Part shown: piece after piece, positions 35,582 to 47,508 of the stretch | How the letters are laid out: every line of letters starts with the position of its first letter | Position numbering within the stretch: the first letter of the stretch is position 1 | From: Nitrospira sp. | GTDB lineage: Bacteria > Nitrospirota > Nitrospiria > Nitrospirales > Nitrospiraceae | DNA: 48,214 nucleotides | Direction of reading: 5' to 3' | NCBI GenBank assembly: GCA_029865225.1 | Contig: JAOUHJ010000022.1 | Location: 1-48,214 of the forward strand | Notes under the pieces: generated by a model | What the model was told of the DNA's origin: nothing | What the model saw: the letters and a program-made list of their open reading frames with translations, nothing else | Databases searched by the model: none | Translations under genes and position numbers: made by a program

Positions 35582-35639
35582 TGGTGCCCGGAGGGAGGGT
35601 CGAACTCCCACTCTGTCGCCAGAACCGGATTTTGAGTCC
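35582..35639. repeat. Left attachment site (attL), displaced 3' part of tRNA-Leu
   Basis: These 58 bases are identical to 47422-47479; the match stops at both sides (T versus A before, C versus G after). The segment corresponds to the anticodon stem-loop, variable arm, T arm, acceptor strand and CCA of the tRNA, without the 5' half, so it is not a working tRNA. This is the original chromosomal 3' end, displaced when the element entered. Confidence 0.93.
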
Positions 35640-35750
35640 CTAGGACTCACCCTCACCTACCGTACCTATCAGTCAATATCTCGGCGGATCGGTAACTTAC
35701 ACGCTTCGCGCTGTGATCTCAAGAACCGATTTCACCCCATGCAGACCGAT

Positions 35751-35777
35751 GACTACGGGACAAATTACGGGACAGTG
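35751..35777. repeat. Left pair of TACGGGACA repeats, candidate integrase arm-binding sites
   Basis: Two TACGGGACA copies lie 12 bases apart, about 112 bases inside the left border. Almost the same arrangement (two copies 11 bases apart, flanks GAC and GTG also kept) lies 58 bases inside the right border. A lone inverted copy, TGTCCCGTA, is at 36462-36470. Paired short repeats near both ends are what arm sites of a lambda-type tyrosine integrase look like. Confidence 0.6.
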
Positions 35778-35785
35778 GGAGAGGA

Positions 35786-36316
35786 TCATTCAGGTCTATC
35801 ACGTGGCGACTCGATGCCTAACAGGAGATTTATGTTCGTCATAATCTCATCGAGTGCACGCTCACCTCTCACCATACACCTGTCAAAATCTTTTGAGGAT
35901 GAGATCTCAGGTTCAACATGCACACTCCCTACACGGTTTCTAGATGGGGTATGGGCAAGTGCGTTGCGAACCTTGTTTACAGCCTTAATGTCTGCCATGC
36001 ATGAATCAGAAATCAGTCCTGCCGCTTTCGCTATTTCAATTCGATTAGTGAAAGTGACTCGCCTTACCGCCTCGGAAACTTTCCCAAAGTTCCCTTTCAA
36101 TTTTCCAGAACCGAGGAGCCGTACCGTGAGAATCGCCTCAACCGCACTGTCTAGCAACAGATGTAAGGCAAGGATTGAGGTCAAGCGGTCTGCGGCTTCT
36201 TCGCTATGCAGATGGAGAGCCGAACGGAATTTCATCCACCGATGTTTTTCCAAATTTTTCATCACGGCGTTCACTAAGGCGGCTTTTTTTGAGTCTGTTG
36301 GCTTCGCTGGTCGCAT
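35786..36316 (-). CDS. HEPN-motif protein, MtlR/DUF4145-like helical fold
   Basis: A 176-residue, mainly helical protein. Residues 117-122 read RNALAH, an exact R-N-x3-H motif as found in HEPN ribonucleases and in relatives such as MtlR. The lead-up (LISDSCMADIKAVNKVRNALAH) follows the MtlR/DUF4145 pattern of an LIS turn, then a helix with KVRN-x2-AH. An upstream helix (ALHLLLDSAVEAILTVRLL) fits the fold too. It may be an RNA-cutting toxin or defence effector, or only a scaffold. No antitoxin gene is next to it. It is transcribed outward toward the left border. Confidence 0.6.
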   Translation of the reverse strand: MRPAKPTDSKKAALVNAVMKNLEKHRWMKFRSALHLHSEEAADRLTSILALHLLLDSAVEAILTVRLLGSGKLKGNFGKVSEAVRRVTFTNRIEIAKAAGLISDSCMADIKAVNKVRNALAHTPSRNRVGSVHVEPEISSSKDFDRCMVRGERALDEIMTNINLLLGIESPRDRPE

Positions 36317-36493
36317 GATTCACTTCCCCCGGTGGGTGGATAATGGAGGCACACTCATACCCAAGGGTTTCCATTTATTCAAGTTTCTTCACCCAAGGAA
36401 CCGGATTCGCAATCCTGAGCGTGTCCATAAGTCATTGAATCACTACATAATCTCAAACGGTTGTCCCGTACTTGTCCTGCAAGAGGTTCGCGG

Positions 36494-37015
36494 ATGAGTG
36501 CCCCGAAAACGCCCAAAAAACGAGCGTATCAATACAGCGGGCACTATGCCGTCTCAAAGGCGTTGGAGTCCGTCAAAGATCAAGAGCAGTGGCTGAACAA
36601 CCAAGGCCCGCTTGGTGAAGCATTGAAACAGTTGCGGGAAGACCTCATTGAGAAGCAAGGCGGCAAGGACACCATCACACCCGCTGAACTCATGGCCATT
36701 GAAGGGCTGGTGTTCTGTCACATGCTCATGATGTCGGCAGGCCGGTTCATCGGGGAGCAAGAGTCACCGGTCAACAAGAGCCGACGCCAGTTGTTCCCGG
36801 TGGTCACGCAATGGCTCACGCTGTTTCGGGAAGTCCGAGAGACCGCAAAGGACCTGAATGTGTTGAGGAAGGACCGCCCGAAACCGGAACCGATTTCGTT
36901 GAATCATTATCTCTCGACCACCGGGAAGCCTAAGGGTCCGTCTCCATCCCCTTCCGCTGACGCTCCCACTGCGATGCCCGATACCAATACAAACGAGACT
37001 GAGGGGGCCGCGTGA
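36494..37015 (+). CDS. Probable terminase small subunit-like partner protein
   Basis: The start at 36494 has AAGAGG upstream; the stop overlaps the terminase GTG start by 4 bases (GTGA). The 173-residue protein is helical with a basic N-terminus (APKTPKKRAYQY), a middle that looks like packed helices (LMAIEGLVFCHMLMMSAGRF), and a proline-rich disordered tail. I do not recognise its family. The small-subunit call rests on the coupling and position directly before the large subunit, not on a domain match. Confidence 0.5.
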   Translation: MSAPKTPKKRAYQYSGHYAVSKALESVKDQEQWLNNQGPLGEALKQLREDLIEKQGGKDTITPAELMAIEGLVFCHMLMMSAGRFIGEQESPVNKSRRQLFPVVTQWLTLFREVRETAKDLNVLRKDRPKPEPISLNHYLSTTGKPKGPSPSPSADAPTAMPDTNTNETEGAA

Positions 37016-38499
37016 ATATCATCAACGCCATCGAAGATCCGCACTTGTTCCGCCCGTTGTTCAAAGACCTCGCGACGTGGCGGAACTGGATGACGGTGTT
37101 GAAAGGCATCTTCGCGCTTGAGATGACCGAGGAAGAACGAACGACCTTCACCACACTGACCGGACGGCAGAGCCAGCCAACACAACCAGTTCAAGAAGCC
37201 TGGTTGATCTGTGGCCGACGTGGCGGCAAGTCGTTCATTGTGGCGTTGATTGCCGTCTTCCTCGCCTGCTTCAAAGACTATCGGCCCTCTCTCGGTCCCG
37301 GTGAACGAGGCGTGCTGATGATTATTGCGACGGATCGCAAGCAAGCCCGCGTCATCATGCGCTACATCCTCGCCCTGATTGAACAAGTCCCGATGCTGAA
37401 ACACATGGTGGTCCGCCAGGATTCCGAGAGCCTCGATCTCGACAACATGGTGAGTATCGAGATCACCACCGCCAGCTATCGGACCATTCGAGGCTACACC
37501 GTGATCTCGGCCCTGTGTGACGAAATCAGCTTTTGGCGGAGTGAGGATTCAGTGAATCCGGCAGAAGAGATTCTTGCCGCCTTACGTCCTGCGATGTCCA
37601 CCATTCCCGGCGCGTTATTGATCGGCCTCGGCACGCCGTACAAGCGGAGCGGGCCGCTCTATGCCGCCTGGAAGCGCCACTACGGACAGACTGAGAGCCC
37701 GGTGCTCGTCGTTCAAGCCGACACCCGCACGATGAACCCCAGCGTACCCCAGTCGGTCATTGATCGGGCGACGGAGCTGGACCCACTGGCGGCCAGTGCC
37801 GAGTACTTGGCGCAATTCAGAGGCGATGTTGGGACGTTCTTGGATGCTGACGTGATCGAGCGAGCCATTGAACCGAACCGCCGCGAACGGGCCCCGGTTA
37901 AGAACATCTCTTATACGGCATTCTGTGATCCTTCTGGTGGAGCCCATGACTCATTCACGTTGGCCATCGGCCATCAAGGCGGCAAACGCTCTGTGCTCGA
38001 TGTCTGTCGTGGTATCAAGCCTCCATTTTCGCCTGAGAACGTAGTCAAGGAGTATGCGGCGCTGCTGAAGTCCTATCGGTGTTCCAGTGTCGTGGGTGAT
38101 CGCTATTCTGGGGAATGGGTCCGTGAAGCCTTCAGCAAGGAAGGCATTCACTACCGACATTCTGAGTTGACGAAATCGGAATGCTATCTCGAAAGTTTGC
38201 CGGTGTTCTCTCAAGGCGTCGTCGATCTGGTGGACGTGCCCGCATTGACCACGGAGCTGATGCAGCTCGAACGCCGCACCAGTCGCAGCGGACGCGATAC
38301 CGTCGATCATCCGCCGAATGGCCGGGACGATCTGGCGAATAGCGCCTGTGGTTGTCTGGCGTTGCTCGCGAGCCGTCAGGCGCAGGGGGAAGCGTTCATG
38401 GTCAATTTCCTCACGGGCGTGCCGATTGAACGCGAGGACGACGTTCTGCGTCGCAAGGAAGCGCGATTGCGCGGGGTGCCGGTCGAATCAATCACGTAA
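37012..38499 (+). CDS. terL: Phage terminase large subunit
   Basis: A 495-residue protein, the usual length, with both domains. The ATPase has Walker A GRRGGKS (68-74), Walker B ALCDEISFW with Asp170-Glu171, and a GLGTPYK coupling segment (205-211). The nuclease, RuvC-like, has acidic residues in FCDPSGG (Asp306), VVGDRYSGEW (Asp363) and PNGRDDLANS (439-440). All catalytic positions I can check are present, so the enzyme may work. It starts with GTG. The protein cuts and pumps DNA into capsids, yet no capsid or portal gene is in the element. Confidence 0.93.
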   Translation: MNIINAIEDPHLFRPLFKDLATWRNWMTVLKGIFALEMTEEERTTFTTLTGRQSQPTQPVQEAWLICGRRGGKSFIVALIAVFLACFKDYRPSLGPGERGVLMIIATDRKQARVIMRYILALIEQVPMLKHMVVRQDSESLDLDNMVSIEITTASYRTIRGYTVISALCDEISFWRSEDSVNPAEEILAALRPAMSTIPGALLIGLGTPYKRSGPLYAAWKRHYGQTESPVLVVQADTRTMNPSVPQSVIDRATELDPLAASAEYLAQFRGDVGTFLDADVIERAIEPNRRERAPVKNISYTAFCDPSGGAHDSFTLAIGHQGGKRSVLDVCRGIKPPFSPENVVKEYAALLKSYRCSSVVGDRYSGEWVREAFSKEGIHYRHSELTKSECYLESLPVFSQGVVDLVDVPALTTELMQLERRTSRSGRDTVDHPPNGRDDLANSACGCLALLASRQAQGEAFMVNFLTGVPIEREDDVLRRKEARLRGVPVESIT

Positions 38500-38534
38500 C
38501 CATCGGGCGCAAGCCCATCACAAGGAGGTCTCTC

Positions 38535-39332
38535 ATGGCATTTACGGGGAATATCGTGGCGGGCGTGGCGCATGTCCCGCGTGTGCTCGGGAAAAAACTC
38601 AAAGAAGAACTGGCGATGTATGGGGCCACACACTCCAGCATCTCGACCGTGATGGCAGCGGGCATCGAGAAGTTGAATGAGTGTGATGGCATCATGAGTC
38701 AGTTCCAGGCGCGGGAGGAGATGATACAGACGGATATTCTCTTGAGTCCGGCAGGCAAACAGAAACAGATGGAAGCCGCAGCCAAAGAGTTTTTCGCCAA
38801 GCTGAAATTCGTCGGTGAAGCCGTGGCGTCGCGTCAGGCTGCCGCGAGGGAGTTACGCGCACAACTGGAGAAGGTGCCGCCGTCGGGCTCCGGAGACAAG
38901 GTGGTGGAGTTCTTGACCGGCCAGGAGATTCGGGGGGAACTGCGCAAACTCGCACAGCCAGCGCGGATGAAGCTCCTCAGTGAGCGCACGACAGCGAAGG
39001 ATCTCGCGATCTTGCGAGCGGTCGAAACCAATCCACTCGGTGCACAGGAATTGATTCCTGATGAGTTTCGGGAACGACTCAAAGAAGACCTGGCGGAAAC
39101 GAATCAGGCGGCTGACTATGCCCGGTGGAAAGCCCTCGTGTTCGTCGCTGAGAAGCTGCAACTCCTGGCGAACGTGTTGGAGACGACGCTCGGGAAGTAT
39201 CGCCTCGAGCCGCCGACGTTCTCGATCCCGCCCATCGGCAAGGCCGATTTGAAGATGCAAAACACGCAGCGTCCCGCTGAGAAATCGCCGTCGATTGATC
39301 GTGTCCCCGACGAAGCCCCCGCCGTTCACTGA
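38535..39332 (+). CDS. Helical protein of unknown function next to terminase
   Basis: A 265-residue protein with a strong ribosome-binding site (AAGGAGG). It is predicted mostly helical, with long charged stretches suggesting coiled coils at roughly 65-115 (KQKQMEAAAKEFFAKLK; RQAAARELRAQLEK). It starts MAFTGNIVAGVAHVPRVLGKKL. I find no domain. Its place directly after terL, 35 bases away on the same strand, suggests a link to packaging or to the element cycle, but that is inference. The C-terminus is loose and charged. Confidence 0.65.
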   Translation: MAFTGNIVAGVAHVPRVLGKKLKEELAMYGATHSSISTVMAAGIEKLNECDGIMSQFQAREEMIQTDILLSPAGKQKQMEAAAKEFFAKLKFVGEAVASRQAAARELRAQLEKVPPSGSGDKVVEFLTGQEIRGELRKLAQPARMKLLSERTTAKDLAILRAVETNPLGAQELIPDEFRERLKEDLAETNQAADYARWKALVFVAEKLQLLANVLETTLGKYRLEPPTFSIPPIGKADLKMQNTQRPAEKSPSIDRVPDEAPAVH

Positions 39333-39370
39333 TCGGTGTGGCGCGGCCCCACTGGAGGCGGACGGCGGGT

Positions 39371-39386
39371 GCCCGCATGCGGGGGC
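39371..39386. terminator. GC-rich palindrome between convergent genes
   Basis: A perfect 12-base palindrome (CCCGCATGCGGG at 39372-39383) with one more pairing on each side lies between the convergent ends of the helical-protein gene and the secreted-protein gene. No T run follows it, so a bidirectional terminator is a weak guess. Confidence 0.3.
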
Positions 39387-39408
39387 CGCTGTCCCGTCTG
39401 GGTCCCCA

Positions 39409-39960
39409 TCACAGAACCGGTGGGCTCAGCGCCGTCGGGTTGTCTACGGACTCCCAAACAAACGCCCTGGGATCGTGCGCGAGGACGTCGTTGTAGAGCA
39501 CGCCCACGATCACCGGCCGGTCCTTGTCGCCCACGAACGGCAGCGTATCGCCCTCGTACAGCGCGATCGGCTTCTTGGAAGCGACCGCCGTGAGCACAAA
39601 GATAGGGCTCTGCGTGAACTGCCAATTCGGGTCTGAGCGGCCCATCGAGATCGCTATCGTCAGCACCTTCCTGTCCGTCACGGCCAGCCGTGCCTTCGGG
39701 TCAAGGACGGAGACCGTCCGGCGGAACCCCTCTCCCGAACGTTGGAAGCCACCCAACTCACAGGGGGACATCTGCTCCTCCAGATCGCCGCGCACGTCCA
39801 CCGCACACTTCACCACGACGACGTGGCCTGCCAGAGGCCCGCTGAGATACGTGACCCTGGTCGTGAACTCCTTAAATTCCTGGGCCCCTGCGCTCGCTGC
39901 CCCCCACAGCCCCACGCTCAACCCTACACTGACGAGGACCACCCACATGCGATGGCTCAT
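39409..39960 (-). CDS. Secreted protein, member of the element-encoded paralogue family (copy A)
   Basis: The start at 39960 has AGGAGG and gives a signal peptide (MSHRMWVVLVSVGLSVGLWG, cleaved near ASAGAQ). The mature part shares a pattern with the copies at 41.6 and 42.2 kb: GPLAGHVVVVKCAVDV matches GPYAGKRV-x3-CAV, and ARLAVTDRKVLTI matches ARVAV-x5-L-x-LVI. It has one cysteine pair (CAV and SPCEL). No known domain. It probably acts outside the inner membrane; why a mobile element carries it is unknown. It is the most divergent of the three whole copies. Confidence 0.7.
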   Translation of the reverse strand: MSHRMWVVLVSVGLSVGLWGAASAGAQEFKEFTTRVTYLSGPLAGHVVVVKCAVDVRGDLEEQMSPCELGGFQRSGEGFRRTVSVLDPKARLAVTDRKVLTIAISMGRSDPNWQFTQSPIFVLTAVASKKPIALYEGDTLPFVGDKDRPVIVGVLYNDVLAHDPRAFVWESVDNPTALSPPVL

Positions 39961-40100
39961 GCCTGCCTCCTCTTGGATGATGAATAATGAACCGTCGTTG
40001 ATGACCACGCCGCGTGTCCAGACGGCACCGTGTCCGGGGCCAATGCCGCTCCTTTTATGATCCCAAACGCCCACGCGCTCACGGCGCGATAGGCACTCGC

Positions 40101-40607
40101 TTAGCTCGGACCGCGTACGCACCAGGCACTCGCCTCGCTGTCGGACGACATTTCGACAAAACCGAATCCTCGAGACTGCCCGGTAGTTTTTCCCACCACA
40201 GCAGTCGGAGACACGAGGAGCACCAAGCTCGTCCAGGAGCCTGTGCGGTCCGAGTGGATACCAGGAAAGACGATCGGGGGCACAGAGGGAGGCGGCAAGT
40301 TGGGATCGCGCAGGCTCATCGCCTCATCCCCTGTGGGGAGCCGCCAGCCGAGCGTCCCGCCAACGTCCTTCCCAAGACAGTATTCCATCGCCTTGCGCCA
40401 CGTTCTGGGCGTCAGATCCGGTCGCCGCTCCCACACGAGCTCCGTGTTCTTATCGAGGACCGCCTCGTTCTTAAAGGATGACAGAACTTGAAATCGTTCT
40501 GATGAGGACAGGTTCTTATCCCAAGACTCGGCCATTGCCCACAGAGGGCTTCCTAGGAAGACGATCACCGCAAGCCCACTCAACCACGTCGTGTTTGTCG
40601 TTCGCAT
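40101..40607 (-). CDS. Secreted DUF1566 (Lcl-like) domain protein
   Basis: A 168-residue protein with a signal peptide (TTWLSGLAVIVFLGSPLWAMA, cut after AMA, which is 21 residues so shown as GLAVIVFLGSPLWAMA). The mature part has the DUF1566 pattern: AVLDKNTELVWERRP, then TWRKAMEYC and GWRLPTGDEAMSL, and an ending GFGFVEMSS...CVRG where the family has its YVRCVRG tail. The domain is found in surface proteins of diverse bacteria, some binding glycans. It lies upstream of copy A in the same direction, 140 bases before it, so they may share a transcript. Confidence 0.75.
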   Translation of the reverse strand: MRTTNTTWLSGLAVIVFLGSPLWAMAESWDKNLSSSERFQVLSSFKNEAVLDKNTELVWERRPDLTPRTWRKAMEYCLGKDVGGTLGWRLPTGDEAMSLRDPNLPPPSVPPIVFPGIHSDRTGSWTSLVLLVSPTAVVGKTTGQSRGFGFVEMSSDSEASAWCVRGPS

Positions 40608-40865
40608 GTAACACTCTCCTCCTTGATGTTGGTGCGGTCCCAGTTTGCCCGGTCCACTCCTGCGGACACCTTCCCCCCTTTTTAAGGGACGGATTTAGGG
40701 ACGAGGAGGGAAGGGACGCGAGACGAGCAAGCAGCTCTCCCTCACGGCGCCCCCCTCACCGCTTGACTCGCCACTGGCGCCCGTTGCGGATCGGGACTGA
40801 GCTCGGGACTGAGCACTGCCCGCATGCGCAGGTCCACGTGCAATCACAAATCTCTCCCCTACTCA
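40608..40865. other. Intergenic stretch between DUF1566 gene and IS110 remnant
   Basis: I see no gene in these 258 bases. The part near 40680 has a pyrimidine/purine run (CCCCTTTTTAAGGG) that could be the upstream region of the DUF1566 gene. Confidence 0.3.
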
Positions 40866-41237
40866 TCAATACACCGACTCTTGCATTGGCTCCGGCACGC
40901 GTCCCTCCACCGCATGCACCGCCCGCGCAAGTTTCGCCAGCTTCTTCGCATCCACCCGATCCGTCTTACCCCGGCTTCTCCGTGATCCACTTCACTTCAT
41001 TCGGGTGCACGACATGGACTTGAACCCCCGCCATGCTCGTGAGTGTCTCGGCGATCCATTTCAACTGATTGCCCGCCTCGAAGTCCACCAGCTTGCTGCC
41101 AGTTCCCACTTGTCATACCAGCGCACGAATGCCTGTCCGGGTGGCTGGCTGCTCTCCCGTACACACCGCTGCTTCCGTTCATTGACGGCATATATCACTA
41201 GGCTCTTGCCACTGACATCCAATCCGACGTACACCAT
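40866..41237 (-). pseudogene. Decayed IS110-family transposase, N-terminal part with two frameshifts
   Basis: Read on the minus strand from an ATG at 41237, three frames in turn give the DEDD domain of an IS110 transposase. First MVYVGLDVSGKSLVIYAV, then LVDFEAGNQLKWIAETL with VHVVHPNEVKWITEKPG, then GKTDRVDAKKLAKLARAVHA. The intact family has about 330-400 residues; only the first 120 remain, and the frame changes twice. It cannot be active. It sits between the two groups of secreted-protein genes and may have helped split or duplicate them. Confidence 0.85.
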
Positions 41238-41568
41238 ACAGTGTCCCCTTTCGTTGGTGATGATCGCTCACCGTAGACAGGTGGCCCATCGGGCCTCGAC
41301 TGTGAACCAATTGAAAGAGAGCCCTATTCACAGAATCGTCTTGAATTTGAATCACGCATAGCCATGCCGACACTAGCCGGTGTCCCGGTGGTGGCGCTGG
41401 GCTGCAGCGGGCTTACCAGACCTGCTGCCCTGTCTGACACCGCTGCCGCCAACGATACCCAGCGAGCCCGAACAGGCCGCTGGCGAGCAAGTCGAGAGTG
41501 GCTGGCTCCGGCTCTGGGTGTGGGGGCGTCCACACCGCCCAGACCCATTGCTCCTTCTGTGGTTAGCG
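41238..41568. other. Stretch without a recognisable gene, upstream of the IS110 remnant
   Basis: Open frames exist on both strands because of high GC, but none has a good start, ribosome-binding site or domain. The part nearest 41240 (AAAGGGGACACT on the minus strand) is probably the untranslated left end of the IS110 element. Confidence 0.35.
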
Positions 41569-42144
41569 TTATGGGGGTGTGGGTGTCCAAGTCCCGGTCC
41601 CCGGGCCAACTACATACGTCTGCACGCCAGTAAATTTGTTGGCGGGATTGCCGCTCTCAAATACTCCCTCGACGAGCAGATTCACCAGTAGACTGTCCCC
41701 GTTGTACCGCGGCAGGGCGTTCCTGCCATCGTGGAGTGGGGTGGGTTGCTGGAAGAGCAGGGCGAGCGATAGAAAGGGGGATGTAGACGGGGCCGCGGGT
41801 TGCGACAGCCCCAGGGACGCCGCGGGGATCACCAGGGTGAACACCCGGCCGCCACCCAGCACCGCCACCCGCGCCTTGGCGTGCCTGATTAACTGGATCT
41901 TCTCGTAGACGCCCTCCCGGGACCGCTCAAAGACGGTCAGCTCACTGAGGCCCTCCTGCTCCTCCTGACTGCGGGTCGTGTCCACCGCAACCTTCGCCTC
42001 CACGCGTTTTCCGGCATAGGGCGACTGTTCCGTAAACTCAAGTTTGACAGTGATGCTGGCTGCCTGGGCCGAAACCGGCGCCGCCCCCAACCCACCCACA
42101 CTGACCACCACACTGACCAGAAGGACCCATAAGCTTCGTCTCAT
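41569..42144 (-). CDS. Secreted protein, paralogue family copy B
   Basis: The start at 42144 has AAGGAG upstream and gives the signal peptide MRRSLWVLLVSVVVSVGGLG with cleavage after VSAQ. This leader is identical in copy C, and the DNA match covers about 80 bases. The mature part is about 165 residues: SITVKLEFTEQSPYAGKRVE, KVAVDTTRSQEEQ, ARVAVLGGGRVFTLVI, and LLFQQPTPLHDGRNALP. The C-terminal part differs from copy C (YVVGPGTGTWTPTPP). No cysteines are in the mature part, unlike copies A and C. Family unknown. Confidence 0.7.
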   Translation of the reverse strand: MRRSLWVLLVSVVVSVGGLGAAPVSAQAASITVKLEFTEQSPYAGKRVEAKVAVDTTRSQEEQEGLSELTVFERSREGVYEKIQLIRHAKARVAVLGGGRVFTLVIPAASLGLSQPAAPSTSPFLSLALLFQQPTPLHDGRNALPRYNGDSLLVNLLVEGVFESGNPANKFTGVQTYVVGPGTGTWTPTPP

Positions 42145-42203
42145 CGTCGCTCCTTTCGGTGATGAATGCACTCCGCCCCCGCTTTGTGCCCACGCCCCCG
42201 CCC

Positions 42204-42268
42204 CGTGCCTAGTCGTCATAGACATCGGCGCCCACGATGTCGAAAATCAGACAATCGGGATTGTCCTG
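42204..42268. repeat. 65-bp repeat, first copy (end of paralogue C)
   Basis: These 65 bases match 42829-42893 with a single difference. The segment contains the stop codon and the last 18 codons of the secreted-protein family. Together with the shared signal-peptide DNA of copies B and C, this shows recent duplication within the array. Confidence 0.85.
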
Positions 42269-42760
42269 AAAGGTGCCGTCGAGACTCACGCTCACGAGCG
42301 TGGCCTTGGGTCCGCTCTGGCTCCCCGGCAGGGCCGTGCCGCCATCGTGCAGGCGGGGCCGTGGCTGGTGGAAGAGCAGCTCCACCGCAAAGAACGGGTG
42401 CTTAGAGGTAGCCTGGGGATCCGACGGCACCGGCGAGACCCCGCCGATCACCAGGCGCAACACCTGGCCGCCCACCACCGCCACCCGCGCCTGCCGGTCC
42501 TCCAGCGTGAGGAGCGGCGTGAAGCCCCCCTCCCGCGCCGGGGCCTCGACCCGCATCTTGCAGCGCGTCACCTGCACGTCCTGAGGGCCGCGCAGATTCA
42601 CGGCACACGTTGCCCGCACGCGTTTCCCGGCATAGGGCCCGTCGTGCTGATACGCGACGTTGACGGTGATGCTGCCTTCCTGGGCCGAAACCGGCGCCGC
42701 CCCCAGCCCGCCCACACTGACCACCACACTGACCAGAAGGACCCACAAGCTTCGTCTCAT
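42209..42760 (-). CDS. Secreted protein, paralogue family copy C
   Basis: The start at 42760 has AAGGAG. The signal peptide is the same as in copy B. The mature part shows SITVNVAYQHDGPYAGKRV, CAVNLRGPQDV, ARVAVVGGQVLRLVI and LLFHQPRPRLHDGGTALPG, aligning to copy B over most of its length. The C-terminus QDNPDCLIFDIVGADVYDD is present again in a remnant at 42834, so this gene is part of a longer tandem array. It lies 64 bases upstream of copy B in the same direction. Confidence 0.7.
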   Translation of the reverse strand: MRRSLWVLLVSVVVSVGGLGAAPVSAQEGSITVNVAYQHDGPYAGKRVRATCAVNLRGPQDVQVTRCKMRVEAPAREGGFTPLLTLEDRQARVAVVGGQVLRLVIGGVSPVPSDPQATSKHPFFAVELLFHQPRPRLHDGGTALPGSQSGPKATLVSVSLDGTFQDNPDCLIFDIVGADVYDD

Positions 42761-42828
42761 CGGAGTGCTCCTTTCGCTGCAATGCCTGATGATGGATGAT
42801 GGCCCCCGTGCCCCCCGCGCCTCCGCCG

Positions 42829-42893
42829 CGTGCCTAGTCGTCATAGACATCGCCGCCCACGATGTCGAAAATCAGACAATCGGGATTGTCCTG
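42829..42893. repeat. 65-bp repeat, second copy (in the remnant)
   Basis: Same sequence as 42204-42268 but for one base (C instead of G in the codon that is Gly here and Ala there). The distance between the two, 625 bases, equals about one gene plus spacer, as expected of a tandem duplication unit. Confidence 0.85.
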
Positions 42894-42960
42894 TGCGATG
42901 CCGAAAACGGCCACGACGGCGTCGTGTTTCCTGGTGTCCGGCAAGACCGCCCACGGGCCG
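42834..42960 (-). pseudogene. C-terminal remnant of a further paralogue copy
   Basis: On the minus strand this stretch encodes QDNPDCLIFDIVGGDVYDD and a stop, one residue different from the end of copy C. Upstream, the frame keeps only a weak resemblance (the part VVAVFGIAQDNPDC) and there is no signal peptide or good start. It is therefore the tail of a lost copy. Confidence 0.7.
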
Positions 42961-43511
42961 GGACGCGAGGTACTGATTACACGTGTGTTTGACTGAATGT
43001 CAGCCGAGACCCGGAGGGAGCGGTGGGTCGTAGCCGTGGCGATAGCGGGAACTATCGGCCAGGCGCGGACGGATCGTCTGAGGAATGGTCGTGACGTGCA
43101 TACGGCCTCCGACTCGAATCCTGCCGCTTCGGGAACCACGCGAGCCCACTGTAGCAAACCCATTGGGGCAAATTCTAGACCACGATGACACACACACGCC
43201 TGGTGTGAACGTCGAGGAATGAGGCACGTGCTCCCTGCCCCAACGGCACGGTGAATCGTGTTGGATCCAGCATCGTTTTCGATACCGTGCCTGGTGGCCG
43301 GTGGCGCGTGGATGGTCGGTGACACCGCGATTGCGCCTGACCGGAGGACACCCTCTGCCCGCGTAAGGTTTCCGATTGCCTTCAGTCCGCAGGCCCATGC
43401 TACCATCCCCACCAAGGGGCACGGCTCGGACTCGCGATCTGACCCGGTGATGGTGCCTGGACATCGCCGCCCCCGTCTTTCCTTCCAGGAATCCGAACCA
43501 GGCGGGCCCTC
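42961..43511. other. Stretch without a recognisable gene
   Basis: About 550 bases with overlapping open frames on both strands caused by high GC, none with a convincing start, codon pattern or domain. It may hold the promoter of the plus-strand gene at 43512 and eroded parts of the fourth secreted paralogue near its right-hand side. Confidence 0.4.
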
Positions 43512-44156
43512 GTGCCGAACACACCATCCGAAGAGACACGAACACGCCATACGCGCACGTCGCTTCCCCCGTCCGTACTCGATCAGATGGAGGCCATGGT
43601 CCGCCATCCAGAATTTCAACGGATACTCCCGCTCCTACAGAGCATGGCGGACAAGACGTATGCGAACTTGACGGAGGAGGAAGAGCGAGAGCGAGATGCG
43701 CCACGAACCAAAATTCGGATTGCTGCCATGATGGAAGCCGATGCCCAGTGGCTCAGTCGGTCAATCCGTCAGATTCGCGAACACGGGGAAGGGGCTTGGG
43801 CGGACGAGGCGGTCAACGGACCGTGGGGCGATACGACCGACATCATTCATCTGAACCGTCTTGTTCCCGGCGATCTCCCGCTTGATGAAACGCTGCCGGT
43901 TGTAAGGGAGCATCTACACCAACAACGCCGACAACTCGGTATGACAGCCACGCAGCACCCGCGCCCGCACGAAGTGGATAAGTGGAAGGTGTACGATCTC
44001 CACACCCAGGGTCTTACGTTCTGGGACATCACCCGCCGTCTCTTCAAACTCAAAGGCAAGACCACCTACGACCCTGGCGCACAAGCGCAGTACGCCCAAG
44101 TTCGTCGGGCATATCGTGCCGCCTCTGGCCTGATTCAGGCATACAACGAACGCTAG
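43512..44156 (+). CDS. Helical protein with possible DNA-binding C-terminus, unknown function
   Basis: The longest frame starts with a GTG at 43512; an ATG at 43587 is an alternative. The protein has up to 214 residues. The first half is charged and helical (TEEEERERDAPRTKIRIAAM). In the last 60 residues, VYDLHTQGLTFWDITRRLF then TYDPGAQAQYAQVRRAYRAA looks like a helix-turn-helix: a GLTFWDIT turn and a recognition-like helix with Arg. I recognise no family. It begins the plus-strand set of small genes that leads to the integrase, 96 bases before the AlpA-like gene, so a regulatory role is possible. Confidence 0.6.
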   Translation: MPNTPSEETRTRHTRTSLPPSVLDQMEAMVRHPEFQRILPLLQSMADKTYANLTEEEERERDAPRTKIRIAAMMEADAQWLSRSIRQIREHGEGAWADEAVNGPWGDTTDIIHLNRLVPGDLPLDETLPVVREHLHQQRRQLGMTATQHPRPHEVDKWKVYDLHTQGLTFWDITRRLFKLKGKTTYDPGAQAQYAQVRRAYRAASGLIQAYNER

Positions 44157-44252
44157 CCCTTCCAGTCAGCCCCTCAACTATTTTTCGACGTACAGGCTCC
44201 TCCCCCCTGTGTGTCGCTATCCCTCCGTTTCCTAGAGGGGTATATCAGCAGC

Positions 44253-44441
44253 ATGACGAACAACAAGAAACCACGACCGCCAGTTTCAACCGAGAAACTC
44301 GGCAAGAAACTTCACATCTCAACCTCCTATATCTATCGCCACCAGGATGAGATGCCAGGGAGATTTCGTGTCGGACGATGCCTTCGCTGGGACCCGGATG
44401 TTGTGCTCGAATGGATGCGCAATCAGGGGCGGAAGAAATGA
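44253..44441 (+). CDS. AlpA/excisionase-like winged-helix protein
   Basis: The start at 44253 gives 62 residues: VSTEKLGKKLHISTSYIYRH as a MerR-type helix-turn-helix, then MPGRFRVGRCLRWDPDVVLEWM as the wing with the conserved R-W-D pattern of AlpA-type regulators and excisionases. Such proteins bind attachment-site DNA or activate the integrase. Its stop overlaps the next start (ATGA). The DNA-binding kind and the integrase nearby make an excision-control role likely. Confidence 0.8.
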   Translation: MTNNKKPRPPVSTEKLGKKLHISTSYIYRHQDEMPGRFRVGRCLRWDPDVVLEWMRNQGRKK

Positions 44442-44878
44442 CTGAGGAAGATAGCCACACGAAGGACATCGAATTCAAATTTGATGCGTCGCTGCCGCCG
44501 CTCCTGCCACCTGGAGATCACTACGTGGTCGCCTTTGTCCGTGCAGAACAGCAATTGCTCTGGGGAAAACGGCGCAAACTCTTTATGCATTTCAAGGTTG
44601 TCAGTCCGGCTGAACATGCCGGTGCGGCACTCTTTCTGGCGGCCAATGTCGCGCATGACGGAAAGTGGGGGATCGGTTTCAAATTTTATCGGTTGTGGGC
44701 ACTCGCTGCGGGCTATCGTCCTAAACGGAAAGATCGGCTCAGTACGACGGTCTTCCGCGGGAAGTATTTCAAGGCACGAGTGAAGACCGTCGAGGTTTCA
44801 TCAAAGAACACCAAACGCGCATTGGCTGCCCAATACAGCATTGTCGATGAACTGCTCACAATCGAGGCTGGAGCATGA
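44438..44878 (+). CDS. Conserved mobile-element protein of unknown function
   Basis: A 146-residue protein with LPPGDHYVVAFVRAEQQLLWGKRRKLFMHF near its N-terminus (described as PPGDHYVVAFVRAEQ, then GKRRKLFMHFKV), followed by HAGAALFLAANVA and GFKFYRLWALAAGYRPKRKD, then SIVDELLTIE. I recall similar PPG-Y-x8-E...LxMHF proteins next to AlpA-like genes in other integrated elements, but no function is known to me. It is coupled to both neighbours by ATGA overlaps. It is cytoplasmic. Confidence 0.65.
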   Translation: MTEEDSHTKDIEFKFDASLPPLLPPGDHYVVAFVRAEQQLLWGKRRKLFMHFKVVSPAEHAGAALFLAANVAHDGKWGIGFKFYRLWALAAGYRPKRKDRLSTTVFRGKYFKARVKTVEVSSKNTKRALAAQYSIVDELLTIEAGA

Positions 44879-45210
44879 GCTGGCAACCACTCTTACTTCT
44901 ACTCTTACCAGTACTCCTAGCCATAGCCCTACCTGTACTCGTAGCCGTACCCCCTCCGGCATCAAGGTTCGATAGGCTGGTGTGGCGATTGGCGAGGTAC
45001 TTGGCAGTCTACGCAAGGCACCAATCCAGCGCCTTGCCGAACTCCGGGACGGGACCCGGAGTCCAAACCCCTGGCGACCGAACCCTCCTCCGTCCGGGCT
45101 TCATCGCTCGGACGGCGCCAGGCATACAGTTCACGGAGAAAGACCGCCACCATGAAGATCCGAAGGCAAGTGGCAATAGCACGAGAAGACTGAAGAGCAC
45201 CCAAAGCTGA
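44875..45210 (+). CDS. Small protein with N-terminal membrane segment (doubtful C-terminus)
   Basis: The ATG overlaps the previous stop (ATGA), the same coupling as all its neighbours, so translation starts here plausibly. Residues 5-27 are a strong hydrophobic segment (LLLLLLPVLLAIALPVLVAV). After about residue 50 the sequence looks unlike a folded protein (SALPNSGTGPGVQTPGD), and the DNA there forms three strong hairpins (45013-45121), so only the start may be real or the region may serve as RNA. An antisense frame (45009-45224) with its own hydrophobic start overlaps it. Confidence 0.4.
   Translation: MSWQPLLLLLLPVLLAIALPVLVAVPPPASRFDRLVWRLARYLAVYARHQSSALPNSGTGPGVQTPGDRTLLRPGFIARTAPGIQFTEKDRHHEDPKASGNSTRRLKSTQS
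45013..45121. ncRNA. Candidate structured RNA: three consecutive strong hairpins
   Basis: Three stems follow each other. P1: 45013-45019 pairs with 45031-45037 (7 bp, 11-base loop). P2: 45041-45048 pairs with 45055-45062 (8 bp perfect, 6-base loop). P3: 45071-45076 pairs with 45116-45121 (6 bp), then after a 13-base one-sided bulge 45090-45099 pairs with 45106-45115 (10 bp with one G-U, loop TTCATC). Such an order by chance in 110 bases is unlikely even at this GC. Strand and function are unknown; it might be a regulatory RNA, a structured leader or a site read by a protein. Confidence 0.45.
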
Positions 45211-45239
45211 AGCGAACATGACAAAGCAAGGAGCCTTCC

Positions 45240-45428
45240 ATGAAGTATCTAGTCATGTGCGACCACAATGAAGCCATCATTAATCGTCAGAATGCTGACG
45301 AGGCATTGGAAAGCTTTCGCTGTCGGCGTTGCGTACAGCTTAATCCAGAGACGAAGGCGTTGACCTATCGTAATGTGCGAATTTACCAGGCTTCGGAAGG
45401 CGATGTTCGACTGCTGGAGGGGCGATGA
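45240..45428 (+). CDS. Small protein of unknown function with a CRRC motif
   Basis: A 62-residue protein starting MKYLVMCDHNEAIINRQNA. It has two cysteines close together (FRCRRCVQL) and one earlier Cys-Asp-His, which could bind one zinc. The stop overlaps the next gene (ATGA). No family recognised. The coupling and good spacing to the next small gene favour it being real. Confidence 0.6.
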   Translation: MKYLVMCDHNEAIINRQNADEALESFRCRRCVQLNPETKALTYRNVRIYQASEGDVRLLEGR

Positions 45429-45598
45429 AAGTTCGTCCCGATGCCAAGACCGGGAGCGTGATCGTCGCCATACCCGCACGGGAAGCGATGCACCTTGCAA
45501 GTGAATTGGTCCGGGCGGCGCTGGCCTCAGGGGCCGAGATCGAGCAGGAAGACCGGCAGGAACCGACACCGGATGTGAGCACGGAGCGAGAAGGATGA
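45425..45598 (+). CDS. Very small protein of unknown function
   Basis: A 57-residue frame (MKVRPDAKTGSVIVAIPARE, ending STEREG) coupled by ATGA at its start and by ATGA at its end to the following helix-turn-helix gene. It is short enough to be missed by length cut-offs. It starts with beta-like residues, then a helix (AMHLASELVRAALASG), then an acidic tail. Function unknown. Confidence 0.55.
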   Translation: MKVRPDAKTGSVIVAIPAREAMHLASELVRAALASGAEIEQEDRQEPTPDVSTEREG

Positions 45599-45939
45599 GT
45601 GAGCCTGTCAAAGAGGTGCCAACCTTGGATAGTCTGGTGGCTGATCCAGCACGAGTGTTTCAACTCTCGCCCGATGTCGCACGATTGCTCCTCGGTGGGG
45701 TGAGCGGCCTCCTCCCTGCCCTGATCGCACAGTCCGTGAGGGATACCGGGAAGACCGAGGCCCCCGCCACACCGGAGCGATGGTTGGATGTGGAGCAGGC
45801 CGCAAAGATTTTCAATGTCACAGAGCGATGGTTGAAGACGCATAAGCACAAGCTGCCCCACTCGAAACCATCACATAAGGTGATCCTGTTCCCTGAAGAG
45901 AAGTTGCGCAAGTGGTTTGCGGCCCACAAGTCGAACTGA
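45595..45939 (+). CDS. Helix-turn-helix protein, excisionase-like C-terminal domain
   Basis: A 114-residue protein. The first 60 residues include a hydrophobic region (VARLLLGGVSGLLPALIAQS), amphipathic more than membrane-like. The C-terminal part, RWLDVEQAAKIFNVTERWLK then HSKPSHKVILFPEEKLRKWF, is the MerR-type helix-turn-helix plus wing seen in excisionases. It is the second protein of this kind in the element, with the AlpA-like one at 44253. One may act on the att site and the other on transcription. It is convergent with the RHH gene 8 bases away. Confidence 0.75.
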   Translation: MSEPVKEVPTLDSLVADPARVFQLSPDVARLLLGGVSGLLPALIAQSVRDTGKTEAPATPERWLDVEQAAKIFNVTERWLKTHKHKLPHSKPSHKVILFPEEKLRKWFAAHKSN

Positions 45940-45946
45940 GGGGGGA

Positions 45947-46138
45947 TTAGGTGTCTTTGGACTTGGGAAGTCTGCCCTCGTGTTCCAATTCGGCAACACG
46001 GTCTTCCGCCAGCTTCAACAGCCAGTCTCTCGCGGACATCTGCTCCGCTGCAGCGGCCATTTTGATCTTGAAAAACGTCTTGGCAGGAATCGCCCGCAGA
46101 TTGAATGCATGCACCGGAGCCTTCTTCTTGGTCGCCAT
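45947..46138 (-). CDS. Ribbon-helix-helix protein divergent from the integrase
   Basis: The start at 46138 gives 63 residues: MATKKKAPVHAFNLRAIPAK is basic and ends in a strand (AFNLRAIP), then two helices (KTFFKIKMAAAAEQ, and SARDWLLKLAEDRVAEL). This is the ribbon-helix-helix layout. It is read away from the integrase, with 116 bases between the starts, so it is placed to repress the integrase promoter and its own. A perfect 13-base palindrome lies in that gap. The stop is 7 bases from the convergent helix-turn-helix gene. Confidence 0.7.
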   Translation of the reverse strand: MATKKKAPVHAFNLRAIPAKTFFKIKMAAAAEQMSARDWLLKLAEDRVAELEHEGRLPKSKDT

Positions 46139-46199
46139 GCCGCACCATAGCACGATGATACAGGCGGGACAATGTGGTTGTGGCAACAATGTATTGTTT

Positions 46200-46212
46200 G
46201 ATACACTGTATC
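46200..46212. promoter_or_regulatory. Perfect palindrome, candidate operator between RHH gene and integrase
   Basis: GATACA-C-TGTATC is a perfect palindrome about 43 bases before the integrase start and 61 from the RHH start. Ribbon-helix-helix proteins bind such short palindromes as pairs of dimers. AATGTATTG just before it adds more AT-rich half-site-like sequence. A chromosomal inverted repeat near attL (35466) has a similar GTATCAT half-site. Confidence 0.5.
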
Positions 46213-46254
46213 ATTCAGTACAGTCTCCTCAGGTACCACAGGGAGGACACCAGC

Positions 46255-47406
46255 ATGGCTAAGCGAGGGCGGATCTATCGACGGACCAAGAAGGACCCTA
46301 TCACGGGTGAGCGCGTGGAAGTCGGGCCATACAAGGTTCAACTCTGGATAAACGGACGAGACCATCGGCAATCGTCGCATTCCGAAAAGCGTGAAGTCGC
46401 TGAGAAGCTGTTGACGAAACTCCTGGCTGCCAAGGACGCAGGGACGCTGACTGACGCGACGACGAAGCCGCTGCGGTTTAAAGACCTGCAAGCGGCCATT
46501 GAGCTAGAGTATCGCTTGAAACAGAACAAGTCGCTGGATCGAATGCAGGACGCCTTTCAGGCGCTCGGGACCACGTTCGAGGGCTCGAAAACAAATGCCA
46601 TCACGAAGCAGCGATTGAAGGAGTATGTGACGGAACGACTGGAAGCGGGCAAGGCCCCCGCGACCGTGCTCTACGAACTGCGGATGCTCCGCTATGCTTT
46701 CAAGTTGGTCGAATTGCCCTGCCCGCCCCTACCGACCATCGAGGTCAACAATGTGAGGCGAAACTTCTTTGAGCCCCATGAATTTCAGACTATGGTGAAG
46801 CACCTACCGGTGTATCTCCGGCCTGTGATGACGGCGGCGTTTCTCATGGGCTGGCGGACGCAATCGGAACTCCTGCCGTTGCAATGGAAGCACGTAGACT
46901 TCAACTCGGGAGTGATTACTCTTCCGACTGGTTCCACCAAGAACGGTGAGGGACGCGCCTACCCCTTCGGAAAGTTCCCTGAACTCGTGGCCTTGTTTCA
47001 CGCACGCTGGCAGGAACGAGAGGACTTGCAGCGAGCGCGGGGGATCGTAATCCCCTGGGTATTCTTTCGAGTCGAGAAGACGGCAGTGAAGCCGATCAAG
47101 AGCTATACGACGGCATGGAACAATGCCCGAATCAAGGCAGGCTTATCTGATCGGTGGGTGCATGATTTCCGCCGATGTGGAGCCCGGTCACTCCGACAGG
47201 CCGGAGTAGAGGAAAGTGTGGCTATGGGGCTGCTCGGCCAGAAGACTCCGAGTATGTACCGACGCTATGACATCGTGGACTTGAAAGATCTCACTGTCGG
47301 TGTGGAGAAGTTGGCGGCGTTTCATGCTCACCAGGCAGGACTACGGGACAATTACGGGACAGTGACGCCACTTCCGATTCCCACGAAGAAGGAGAACCAT
47401 GGCTAA
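46255..47406 (+). CDS. int: Tyrosine-type site-specific integrase of the element
   Basis: The start at 46255 (MAKRGRIYRR, with GGGAGGA ahead of it) gives 383 residues. An N-terminal DNA-binding part (1-65) and a core-binding domain (75-165) lead to the catalytic domain. Its residues are Arg201 (GWRTQSELLPLQW), Lys229 (STKNGEGR), His303 and Arg306 (HDFRRC), and nucleophile Tyr338 (YRRYDIVD). The second His/Trp position is Gln329 (LLGQKTPS), as in some phage integrases. The end (DNYGTVTP) is encoded by the right-hand TACGGGACA repeats. The gene ends 15 bases before the tRNA-Leu repeat, the usual place for a tRNA-targeting integrase. Confidence 0.95.
   Translation: MAKRGRIYRRTKKDPITGERVEVGPYKVQLWINGRDHRQSSHSEKREVAEKLLTKLLAAKDAGTLTDATTKPLRFKDLQAAIELEYRLKQNKSLDRMQDAFQALGTTFEGSKTNAITKQRLKEYVTERLEAGKAPATVLYELRMLRYAFKLVELPCPPLPTIEVNNVRRNFFEPHEFQTMVKHLPVYLRPVMTAAFLMGWRTQSELLPLQWKHVDFNSGVITLPTGSTKNGEGRAYPFGKFPELVALFHARWQEREDLQRARGIVIPWVFFRVEKTAVKPIKSYTTAWNNARIKAGLSDRWVHDFRRCGARSLRQAGVEESVAMGLLGQKTPSMYRRYDIVDLKDLTVGVEKLAAFHAHQAGLRDNYGTVTPLPIPTKKENHG
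47339..47364. repeat. Right pair of TACGGGACA repeats inside the 3' end of int
   Basis: Two copies of TACGGGACA 11 bases apart, with flanks GAC and GTG, almost match 35751-35777 (one A fewer). They lie 58 bases inside the right border, in the same direction as the left pair, and overlap codons 364-371 of int. In the circular form they would flank the core on both sides. Confidence 0.6.
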
Positions 47407-47421
47407 GTGCTTGATAAGTTA

Positions 47422-47479
47422 TGGTGCCCGGAGGGAGGGTCGAACTCCCACTCTGTCGCCAGAACCGGATTTTGAGTCC
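47422..47479. repeat. Right attachment site (attR), within tRNA-Leu
   Basis: Identical 58 bases to 35582-35639. Because the left copy lacks the 5' half of the tRNA, the 3' half now in the working gene was brought by the element. The repeat reaches the anticodon loop, where integrases of this type often exchange strands. Confidence 0.93.
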
Positions 47480-47508
47480 GGCGCGTCTGCCAGTTCCGCC
47501 ATCCGGGC
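47422..47508 (-). tRNA. tRNA-Leu (anticodon CAA)
   Basis: Read on the minus strand, 47508 to 47422. The acceptor stem is GCCCGGA with TCCGGGC (7 bp), then discriminator A and an encoded CCA. The D arm has the TGGCGGAACTGGCAGACGC pattern of leucine tRNAs. The anticodon stem CCGGA/TCCGG holds loop CTCAAAA with anticodon CAA, reading UUG. A long variable arm marks it as class II, and the T arm is GGGAG-TTCGACC-CTCCC. The gene was rebuilt by the element: the 3' 58 bases come from the element side. Confidence 0.97.

Follow-up and report, generated by a model that had tools for sequence, protein, structure and literature searches.

An integrative element with its own terminase at a tRNA-Leu gene of Nitrospira: a probable phage satellite and its relatives

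An element inserted at tRNA-Leu(CAA)

Members of the genus Nitrospira are widespread as nitrite oxidizers and comammox bacteria. The subject of the current report is an 11,840-bp segment of one Nitrospira sp. genome (assembly GCA_029865225.1), located in a stretch of 48,214 nucleotides (contig JAOUHJ010000022.1, positions 1 to 48,214) that was analysed as a whole and that we refer to as the window. The segment is inserted at the gene for tRNA-Leu(CAA), encodes an intact terminase large subunit (TerL) that is kept under purifying selection and has no recognizable genes for phage heads or tails. From left to right it carries a HEPN-like gene, gene 1 (small-terminase-like), terL, the gene for an all-helical protein that we call X, a block of genes for exported proteins, a regulation and replication block (P214, a helix-turn-helix or HTH gene, P166 and HTH_17) and an integrase gene (Table 1). 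We consider it probable that this segment is an integrative phage satellite, whose own terminase would load its DNA into the particles of a helper phage.

The ends of the element are marked by two letter-identical copies of a 58-bp direct repeat, spaced 11,840 bp apart, which are the only copies of this pattern across the entire 4.12-Mb genome; the expectation for such a repeat by chance is ~1e-26. A single tRNA, the tRNA-Leu(CAA) on the minus strand, is found in the window by ARAGORN, and Rfam concurs at 47425-47508. As the first-pass annotation of this DNA had proposed, the perfect repeat covers the 3' part of the tRNA, the left copy consisting of that part alone and the right copy lying inside the whole tRNA next to an integrase; the integrase ORF ends 15 bp ahead of the right copy. 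The further proposal that the borders can be read to the base is exact as far as the 58-bp core is concerned; the crossover could fall anywhere inside the core and is not fixed to a single base.

For an alignment with genomes that lack the insertion, as the first-pass annotation had suggested, the window flanks were joined by script and compared with 10 left-flank loci, out of 77 matching genomes in a search of the genus. Eight of the 10 loci (in genomes G074, G126, G114, G085, G053, G117, G116 and G086) have an empty site, where the left flank leads straight on to an intact tRNA-Leu. The remaining two are the window itself and a locus in G087 that stops inside the tRNA and is uninformative; the contig break at this place (L052) is what would be expected were a repeat, and with it an inserted element, present. 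A different element, 9.2 kb in length and flanked by 59-bp repeats, occupies the same tRNA site in genome G115 (locus L042). The first-pass annotation had named the occurrence of both repeats with other DNA between them as a finding that would speak against an integrative element. Taken literally this is the situation in G115, but the DNA in question is itself an element with an integrase and a terminase at the same site, which favours site-specific insertion rather than refuting it. The DNA of the two elements is 72% identical over 1,564 bp at the left end, including the core flank, and 66% identical over 1,205 bp at the integrase end, with no DNA match in the middle beyond these ends and the shared repeat. 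The confinement of similarity to the ends points to a common integration chassis around different cores. The tRNA-derived repeats, the integrase at the right attachment site (attR), the eight empty sites and the independently occupied site together support a site-specific integrative element in tRNA-Leu(CAA). Insertion is demonstrated by this genome comparison; excision would be expected from the genes.

Two pairs of the repeat TACGGGACA, one near each end of the element, look like candidate arm sites for the integrase; elsewhere in the window there is only one more copy, on the minus strand within the element. In a relative from the Nitrospira sp. LK70 record (L004) there is a separate set of paired repeats, and the G115 element has a shared 13-bp arm-like repeat close to its ends.

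The terminase and the missing virion genes

The terL gene overlaps gene 1 by 4 bases. In an alignment of 13 TerL sequences no variation is seen at residues D170-E171, D306 and D439-D440, and almost none at K73 and D363; we take K73 to be the Walker A lysine, D170-E171 the Walker B motif and D306, D363 and D439-D440 the nuclease aspartates. The acidic residues of an RNase H-like nuclease thus accompany a Walker A/B ATPase, as is characteristic of terminase large subunits, and the matches of the TerL profile in the PDB are terminases. Estimates of dN/dS were 0.09-0.16 for three TerL pairs and 0.22-0.26 for the pairs of X that were tested, and both proteins are therefore under purifying selection; pairs of the relatives' major capsid protein (MCP) were saturated.

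Pfam scans were carried out on 18 distinct ORFs of the element. No family of capsid, portal, protease, tail, lysis, primase or relaxase proteins was matched among the scanned element proteins in Pfam or PHROGs, and no coupling protein was found among the 18 ORFs in Pfam. A packaging gene is present, in other words, and a full virion set (portal, capsid, tail) is not, which is a general mark of a satellite. A temperate prophage would require capsid, portal, tail and lysis genes, none of which was matched, and an integrative and conjugative or integrative mobilizable element (ICE or IME) would require relaxase or conjugation genes, none of which appeared in the scans of the 18 ORFs. Conjugation, a gene transfer agent and a plain transposon were likewise dropped as readings, there being no gene of such kinds. 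The first-pass annotation had found that the cargo matches no standard prophage, conjugative element or known satellite, and no defining gene set of these is indeed complete here. The content is readable all the same: TerL, the small-terminase-like gene, the excisionase-like HTH proteins and the integrase make the element phage-satellite-like, with a family of relatives.

Relatives in the Nitrospiraceae and the exchangeable part

Matches to TerL occur in 20 of 175 Nitrospiraceae genomes and in 19 of 395 genomes sampled from the phylum, the strong ones being limited to the Nitrospiraceae. They amount to 27 TerL places when the window and L004 are included, with two rows representing one gene; after omission of fragments and short contigs (G155, G074, G150 and G089:C64), a set of 22 loci was used, namely the window, L004 and 20 further stretches. 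All 22 share a similar plan, with recombinases of the tyrosine or large serine kind, and 15 of the 21 loci other than the window have a tRNA or tmRNA within the stretch. Repeats of at least 25 bp at the integrase end were found in eight of the 22 (the window, L004, L031, L032, L034, L042, L045 and L048) and delimit elements of 9.0-14.7 kb. The decayed locus L043 has a 28-bp repeat; in L036, L037, L041, L046 and L050 the repeats are 16-21 bp long and may be due to chance; and eight of the 22 loci have no convincing end repeats. Primase genes occur in some of the relatives.

Besides TerL, X is encoded at 10 of the 22 loci, an HK97 capsid protein at five (PF05065, 6e-34 in L042), a prohead protease at three (PF04586, 4e-9 in L046) and none of these at four (L038, L039, L043 and L047); no locus has two of them together. 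These counts are based on profiles built in this analysis and on loci selected by TerL, so that seven loci selected by X are excluded. Under random assortment, with relatedness ignored, zero overlap between the 10 loci with X and the eight with capsid protein or protease has p = 0.0015. Kinship alone is insufficient to explain the exclusivity, since one clade of the TerL tree (support 0.96) holds mixed partners: X in L044, protease in L046, capsid in L050 and none in L047. In the last of these, weak protease matches were obtained for a 160-aa ORF, and profile comparison rejected the protein that follows its TerL as a candidate X.

No portal was recognized in the 22 Nitrospiraceae elements. The window element's own genome, 99.98% complete by the tool's estimate, has no match to the portal families PF04860, PF05136 and PF05133 or to PF05065, and in the lack of an HK97-type capsid or portal of these families no resident helper can be named. 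Among element-bearing genomes, PF04860 was found in one of 18 (G104, where the portal lies on contig C97 together with a separate capsid gene and the element on C88), PF05136 in one of 22 (G021, on a different contig from the element) and PF05133 above cut-off in none of 22.

Two observations on this set may be added. At least four TerL elements (L035, L039, L041 and L050) and the X-bearing locus L098 lie on separate contigs of genome G136, and a protein with a weak central-tail-fibre-J match recurs together with a 208-aa partner in L034 (7485-8592), L035, L094 and L099.

Protein X

Modelling gave X the form of a helical bundle (pLDDT 80.5, pTM 0.71). Foldseek gave best E values of 0.11 (viral) and 0.43 (PDB), the best VIA-align match was a designed helical bundle with Z of 11.3, below the tool's guide value of ~13 for bundles, and the X profile had only weak matches in the PDB, to designed or coiled-coil proteins. 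On these scores we neither assign X to a structural family nor discount any. X had no match among 50,697 phage records. The X proteins of the window group and the others were joined by profile comparison at 94-98% probability.

X is no strict partner of TerL, as it was also found at seven places without a close TerL (L094-L100). Three of these (L094, L095 and L097) are at tRNA-Leu genes and combine X with a Neck1/tail-completion protein (phrog_169, 1.6e-36 in L095) and a protein of ~800 aa with a weak tape-measure match (3.5e-7 in L095). At L096, where X is present and no TerL match was found, P166 and the Lcl_C cargo protein are 77% and 72% identical to those of the window. L098 pairs X with a divergent TerL (phrog_9, 2e-54), and L099 and L100 seem broken or partial, X itself being partial in L100.

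In the relatives a capsid or protease gene takes the place of X. This exchange, and the analogy to helical switchers such as Rcm, hint that a modification of head assembly is the likeliest role of X, which might tentatively be seen as a scaffold-like size switcher. Its likeness to the size switchers Sid, CpmB, Rcm and TcaP is that of the helical model. X may instead act as a connector or interfere with the helper, and such other roles gain in plausibility from L095 and L097, where X has a neck gene as its neighbour.

The terminase lineage in viral contigs, phages and plasmids

A search of viral contigs with the TerL alignment detected 50 loci of 34-53% identity; the window TerL as a single query had no matches there. 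X-profile matches were found at five of the 50 loci, directly 3' of TerL in four (L102, L104, L105 and L108), and downstream there are tape-measure matches in L104 and L108 and a baseplate-hub match in L104. Among the 50,697 phage records, relatives of TerL did not exceed 28% identity. Five of 72,556 plasmid records, all alphaproteobacterial (two Methylobacterium, two Komagataeibacter nataicola and one 9.7-kb Roseomonas plasmid), have a TerL of 45-51% identity that is annotated as a hypothetical protein, and are typed as non-mobilizable. Of the four stretches viewed from these five plasmids, three show, close to TerL, a recombinase and a gene of primase type (VapE, P4-family or DUF5906), and the Komagataeibacter stretch has, in addition, ParA and a DUF2213 gene adjoining TerL. 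Close relatives of this TerL thus occur in satellite-like elements and on plasmids, but not in the phage collection. One of the plasmids (NZ_CP019881.1, pKNA06; L151) appears to be a fusion of two nearly identical plasmid copies, with ParA, HTH and other genes repeated.

A phage satellite and the competing explanations

In the satellite that we propose, the tyrosine integrase, the excisionase-like HTH protein and the paired arm repeats would allow the element to insert in the 3' part of tRNA-Leu(CAA) and to leave it again, with the tRNA unbroken. Upon infection by a helper phage the element would exit the chromosome and be copied, and the small-terminase-like protein and TerL would put its DNA into procapsids, with portal, shell and tail contributed by the helper. 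X would modify head assembly, perhaps by scaffold-like size switching, and the HEPN-like gene and the four genes for exported cargo might, as a guess, serve the host or exclude rival phages. The missing capsid and portal genes are consistent with dependence on a helper.

Several observations weigh against this proposal. What is proposed for excision, packaging, the helper and the function of X is read from genes. Gene 1 is called small-terminase-like from its position and from a low-confidence helical model (pLDDT 63.5) that is too weak to settle the matter, and the name is weakened by the capsid-bearing relatives, where the gene 1 family lies apart from terL. The window element has no recognizable primase, a gene that is core to most known satellites in the account of PMC10803314. 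A portal of a family beyond the three Pfam models could have escaped. In 49 of the 50 viral TerL records (L144 was left out of the portal scan), PF04860 was found in seven, six of them above cut-off; by distances calculated by hand it lies within 3 kb of TerL in three (L120, L145 and the sub-cut-off L109), which means that the lineage is not limited to portal-less elements. L114 and L125 have a capsid protein near TerL, to which L114 adds a protease and a tape measure, so that the rule of one part only is valid for the Nitrospiraceae set and not everywhere.

The segment might alternatively be a decaying prophage, a temperate phage remnant that has lost its capsid and tail genes and retains terL by accident. 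TerL is a phage protein, the absence of capsid, portal and tail genes is as such an origin would have it, and some loci are plainly decayed (a 141-aa piece of TerL in L043, the partial X in L100). Remnants would nevertheless not be expected to recur as many relatives with intact ORFs and the same compact plan at various tRNA genes, to keep TerL and X under purifying selection at the values given above, or to share a terminase lineage that turns up again on plasmids, and we regard this origin as unlikely.

A phage-defence or host-benefit island, in which TerL, gene 1 and X would decoy or poison phage packaging while the island itself is never packaged, seems to us quite unlikely. The HEPN-like gene at the left end and the exported cargo would be in keeping with it, and X and TerL could conceivably poison the assembly of a helper; PADLOC, on the other side, recognized none of the 10 proteins submitted, nine of which were window proteins, and a pure poison would have no need of the two catalytic sites that are conserved in TerL.

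An autonomous mini-phage, with X or another unrecognized protein as a novel capsid or portal and no need for a helper, is very improbable. X is new by sequence and has no convincing structure match, and many of the element's ORFs have no assignment, but X is modelled as a helical bundle unlike the HK97-like shell fold, none of the remaining ORFs resembles a portal or tail protein, and relatives of X also accompany tape-measure and neck genes where TerL is absent. An integrative mobilizable element that spreads by conjugation with terL as a passenger, a class that the tRNA-gene integrase would suit as well, is the least credible of all, the Pfam scans of the 18 ORFs having given neither a relaxase nor a coupling protein and terL being conserved throughout the family.

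Comparison with known satellites

Like the satellite proposed here, the capsid-forming phage-inducible chromosomal islands (cf-PICIs) are integrative; they encode a small terminase (TerS, for which gene 1 is the candidate in the window element), TerL and parts of the head. The cf-PICIs as described in PMC10690885 have capsid, protease, portal and connectors together, and here TerL is found with one of X, capsid or protease and no recognized portal. Assignment to the cf-PICIs was rejected, as none of their capsid, protease, portal or connector genes was matched in the element and the models for PF05065 and portals were blank genome-wide.

The PICIs and the Staphylococcus aureus pathogenicity islands (SaPIs) are of a size similar to that of the window element, and they resemble it in having an integrase, an excisionase-like regulator and a small terminase, for which gene 1 is the candidate here; a further likeness is capsid redirection by helical proteins such as CpmB and Rcm (PMC12409344), a role that X may have. 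They depend on redirection by TerS or on the helper terminase (PMC10690885), in contrast to the whole TerL, with no recognized primase, of the present element. A PICI would require a primase beside an AlpA-like regulator, and with HTH_17 present and no primase matched this assignment was also rejected. The phage-inducible chromosomal minimalist islands (PICMIs) of the Vibrionaceae are likewise small, with an integrase, an AlpA-like HTH and no capsid genes, but according to the same account that describes them so (PMC10803314) they need a primase, lie adjacent to fis and have no identifiable packaging genes. The element, sited at tRNA-Leu and without a primase match, was rejected as a PICMI, for which int, alpA and a primase beside fis are required.

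The signature genes of P4 are Psu, Delta, Sid and the alpha primase; none of their families had a Pfam match among the 18 ORFs, where divergent forms could escape. P4 is comparable in its size-determining scaffold Sid and in its ability to live as a plasmid (PMC10690885), for which the plasmids reported above are the counterpart here; it uses the terminase of P2. Mulch and Flayer, satellites of Streptomyces phages, also have terminase genes (PMC10690885) and differ in having a portal, capsid, scaffold and head-tail adapter. The novelty of the window element is limited mainly by the virion-encapsidated integrative mobile elements (VEIMEs) and the tycheposons: they are integrative elements of marine bacteria with tyrosine recombinases and tRNA sites, VEIMEs have been found in virions, and there may be overlap with the present family. 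No description of phage satellites in Nitrospira was found in the literature searched (including PMC11849493), as far as these sources extend.

By gene content, the window family appears to lie between the cf-PICIs, with a whole head, and the PICIs and PICMIs, having a full motor and one other part. It is conceivable, although we hold it doubtful, that it belongs to a broad and as yet unnamed class of satellites, built on one terminase lineage with a motor, one exchangeable part (X, capsid or protease) and no portal, with sisters that have X, neck and tape-measure genes and no motor; these would assemble hybrid particles in which individual components of the helper virion are exchanged for their own, and X would represent a new helical family that redirects assembly. 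If the satellite reading of the window element is right, it would show how satellites can capture a helper by exchanging single virion parts rather than by bringing a whole head, and it makes testable which single parts a satellite must own for stealing a phage particle. This terminase lineage, which phage collections hardly contain and whose genes have no annotation on the plasmids we examined, might serve as a marker for further elements.

Features of the element and its cargo

Table 1. Features of the integrative element, in window coordinates
Feature	Position	Strand	Basis or remark
attL core, 58 bp, copy of the 3' part of tRNA-Leu(CAA)	35582..35639	-	repeat search
Left arm-type repeat pair, two TACGGGACA (35754, 35766), 12 bp apart	35751..35777	+	
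176-aa HEPN/DUF4145/Abi_2-like protein	35786..36316	-	Pfam matches all sub-cut-off; phrog_5483 5e-9
Gene 1, 173 aa, small-terminase-like	36494..37015	+	position (terL overlap), low-confidence helical model
Terminase large subunit TerL	37012..38499	+	phrog_2 6e-23, phrog_9 7e-16; catalytic residues intact
X, 265 aa, all-helical	38535..39332	+	family present in 10/22 TerL-bearing loci
Cargo, exported protein	39409..39960	-	signal-peptide-like N-terminus, judged by eye
Cargo, exported protein with Lcl_C (PF07603) domain	40101..40607	-	Pfam 1.7e-13
Cargo, exported protein, tandem paralogue 1	41569..42144	-	repeat D1
Cargo, exported protein, tandem paralogue 2	42209..42760	-	repeat D1
P214, conserved	43512..44156	+	precedes primase/helicase-like genes in L004, L037
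76-aa HTH, excisionase/regulator-like	44211..44441	+	phrog_66 7e-5
P166, conserved small protein, regulation/replication region	44438..44878	+	
114-aa HTH_17, excisionase/AlpA-like	45595..45939	+	Pfam 3.2e-7
80-aa conserved small protein	45947..46189	-	~60% identical in G115 element
Tyrosine integrase	46174..47406	+	PF00589 1.1e-11
Right arm-type repeat pair, two TACGGGACA (47342, 47353), 11 bp apart	47339..47364	+	
attR core, within complete tRNA	47422..47479	-	repeat search
tRNA-Leu(CAA), complete	47422..47508	-	ARAGORN; Rfam

The HEPN-like gene at attL is 70% identical to its counterpart in the otherwise different G115 element (ORF from 1613), where it has the same place, as if such a gene were handed on at the attachment site. 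A 58-aa ORF on the minus strand (41061-41237) resembles by eye the start of an IS110-type transposase and has no Pfam match. The exported cargo proteins have no family match in Pfam except for Lcl_C. Two of their genes are tandem paralogues (41569-42850, minus strand), with repeats of 75-91% DNA identity lying 616-625 bp apart, and a third, related-looking gene at 39409 suggests a small, expanding cargo family.

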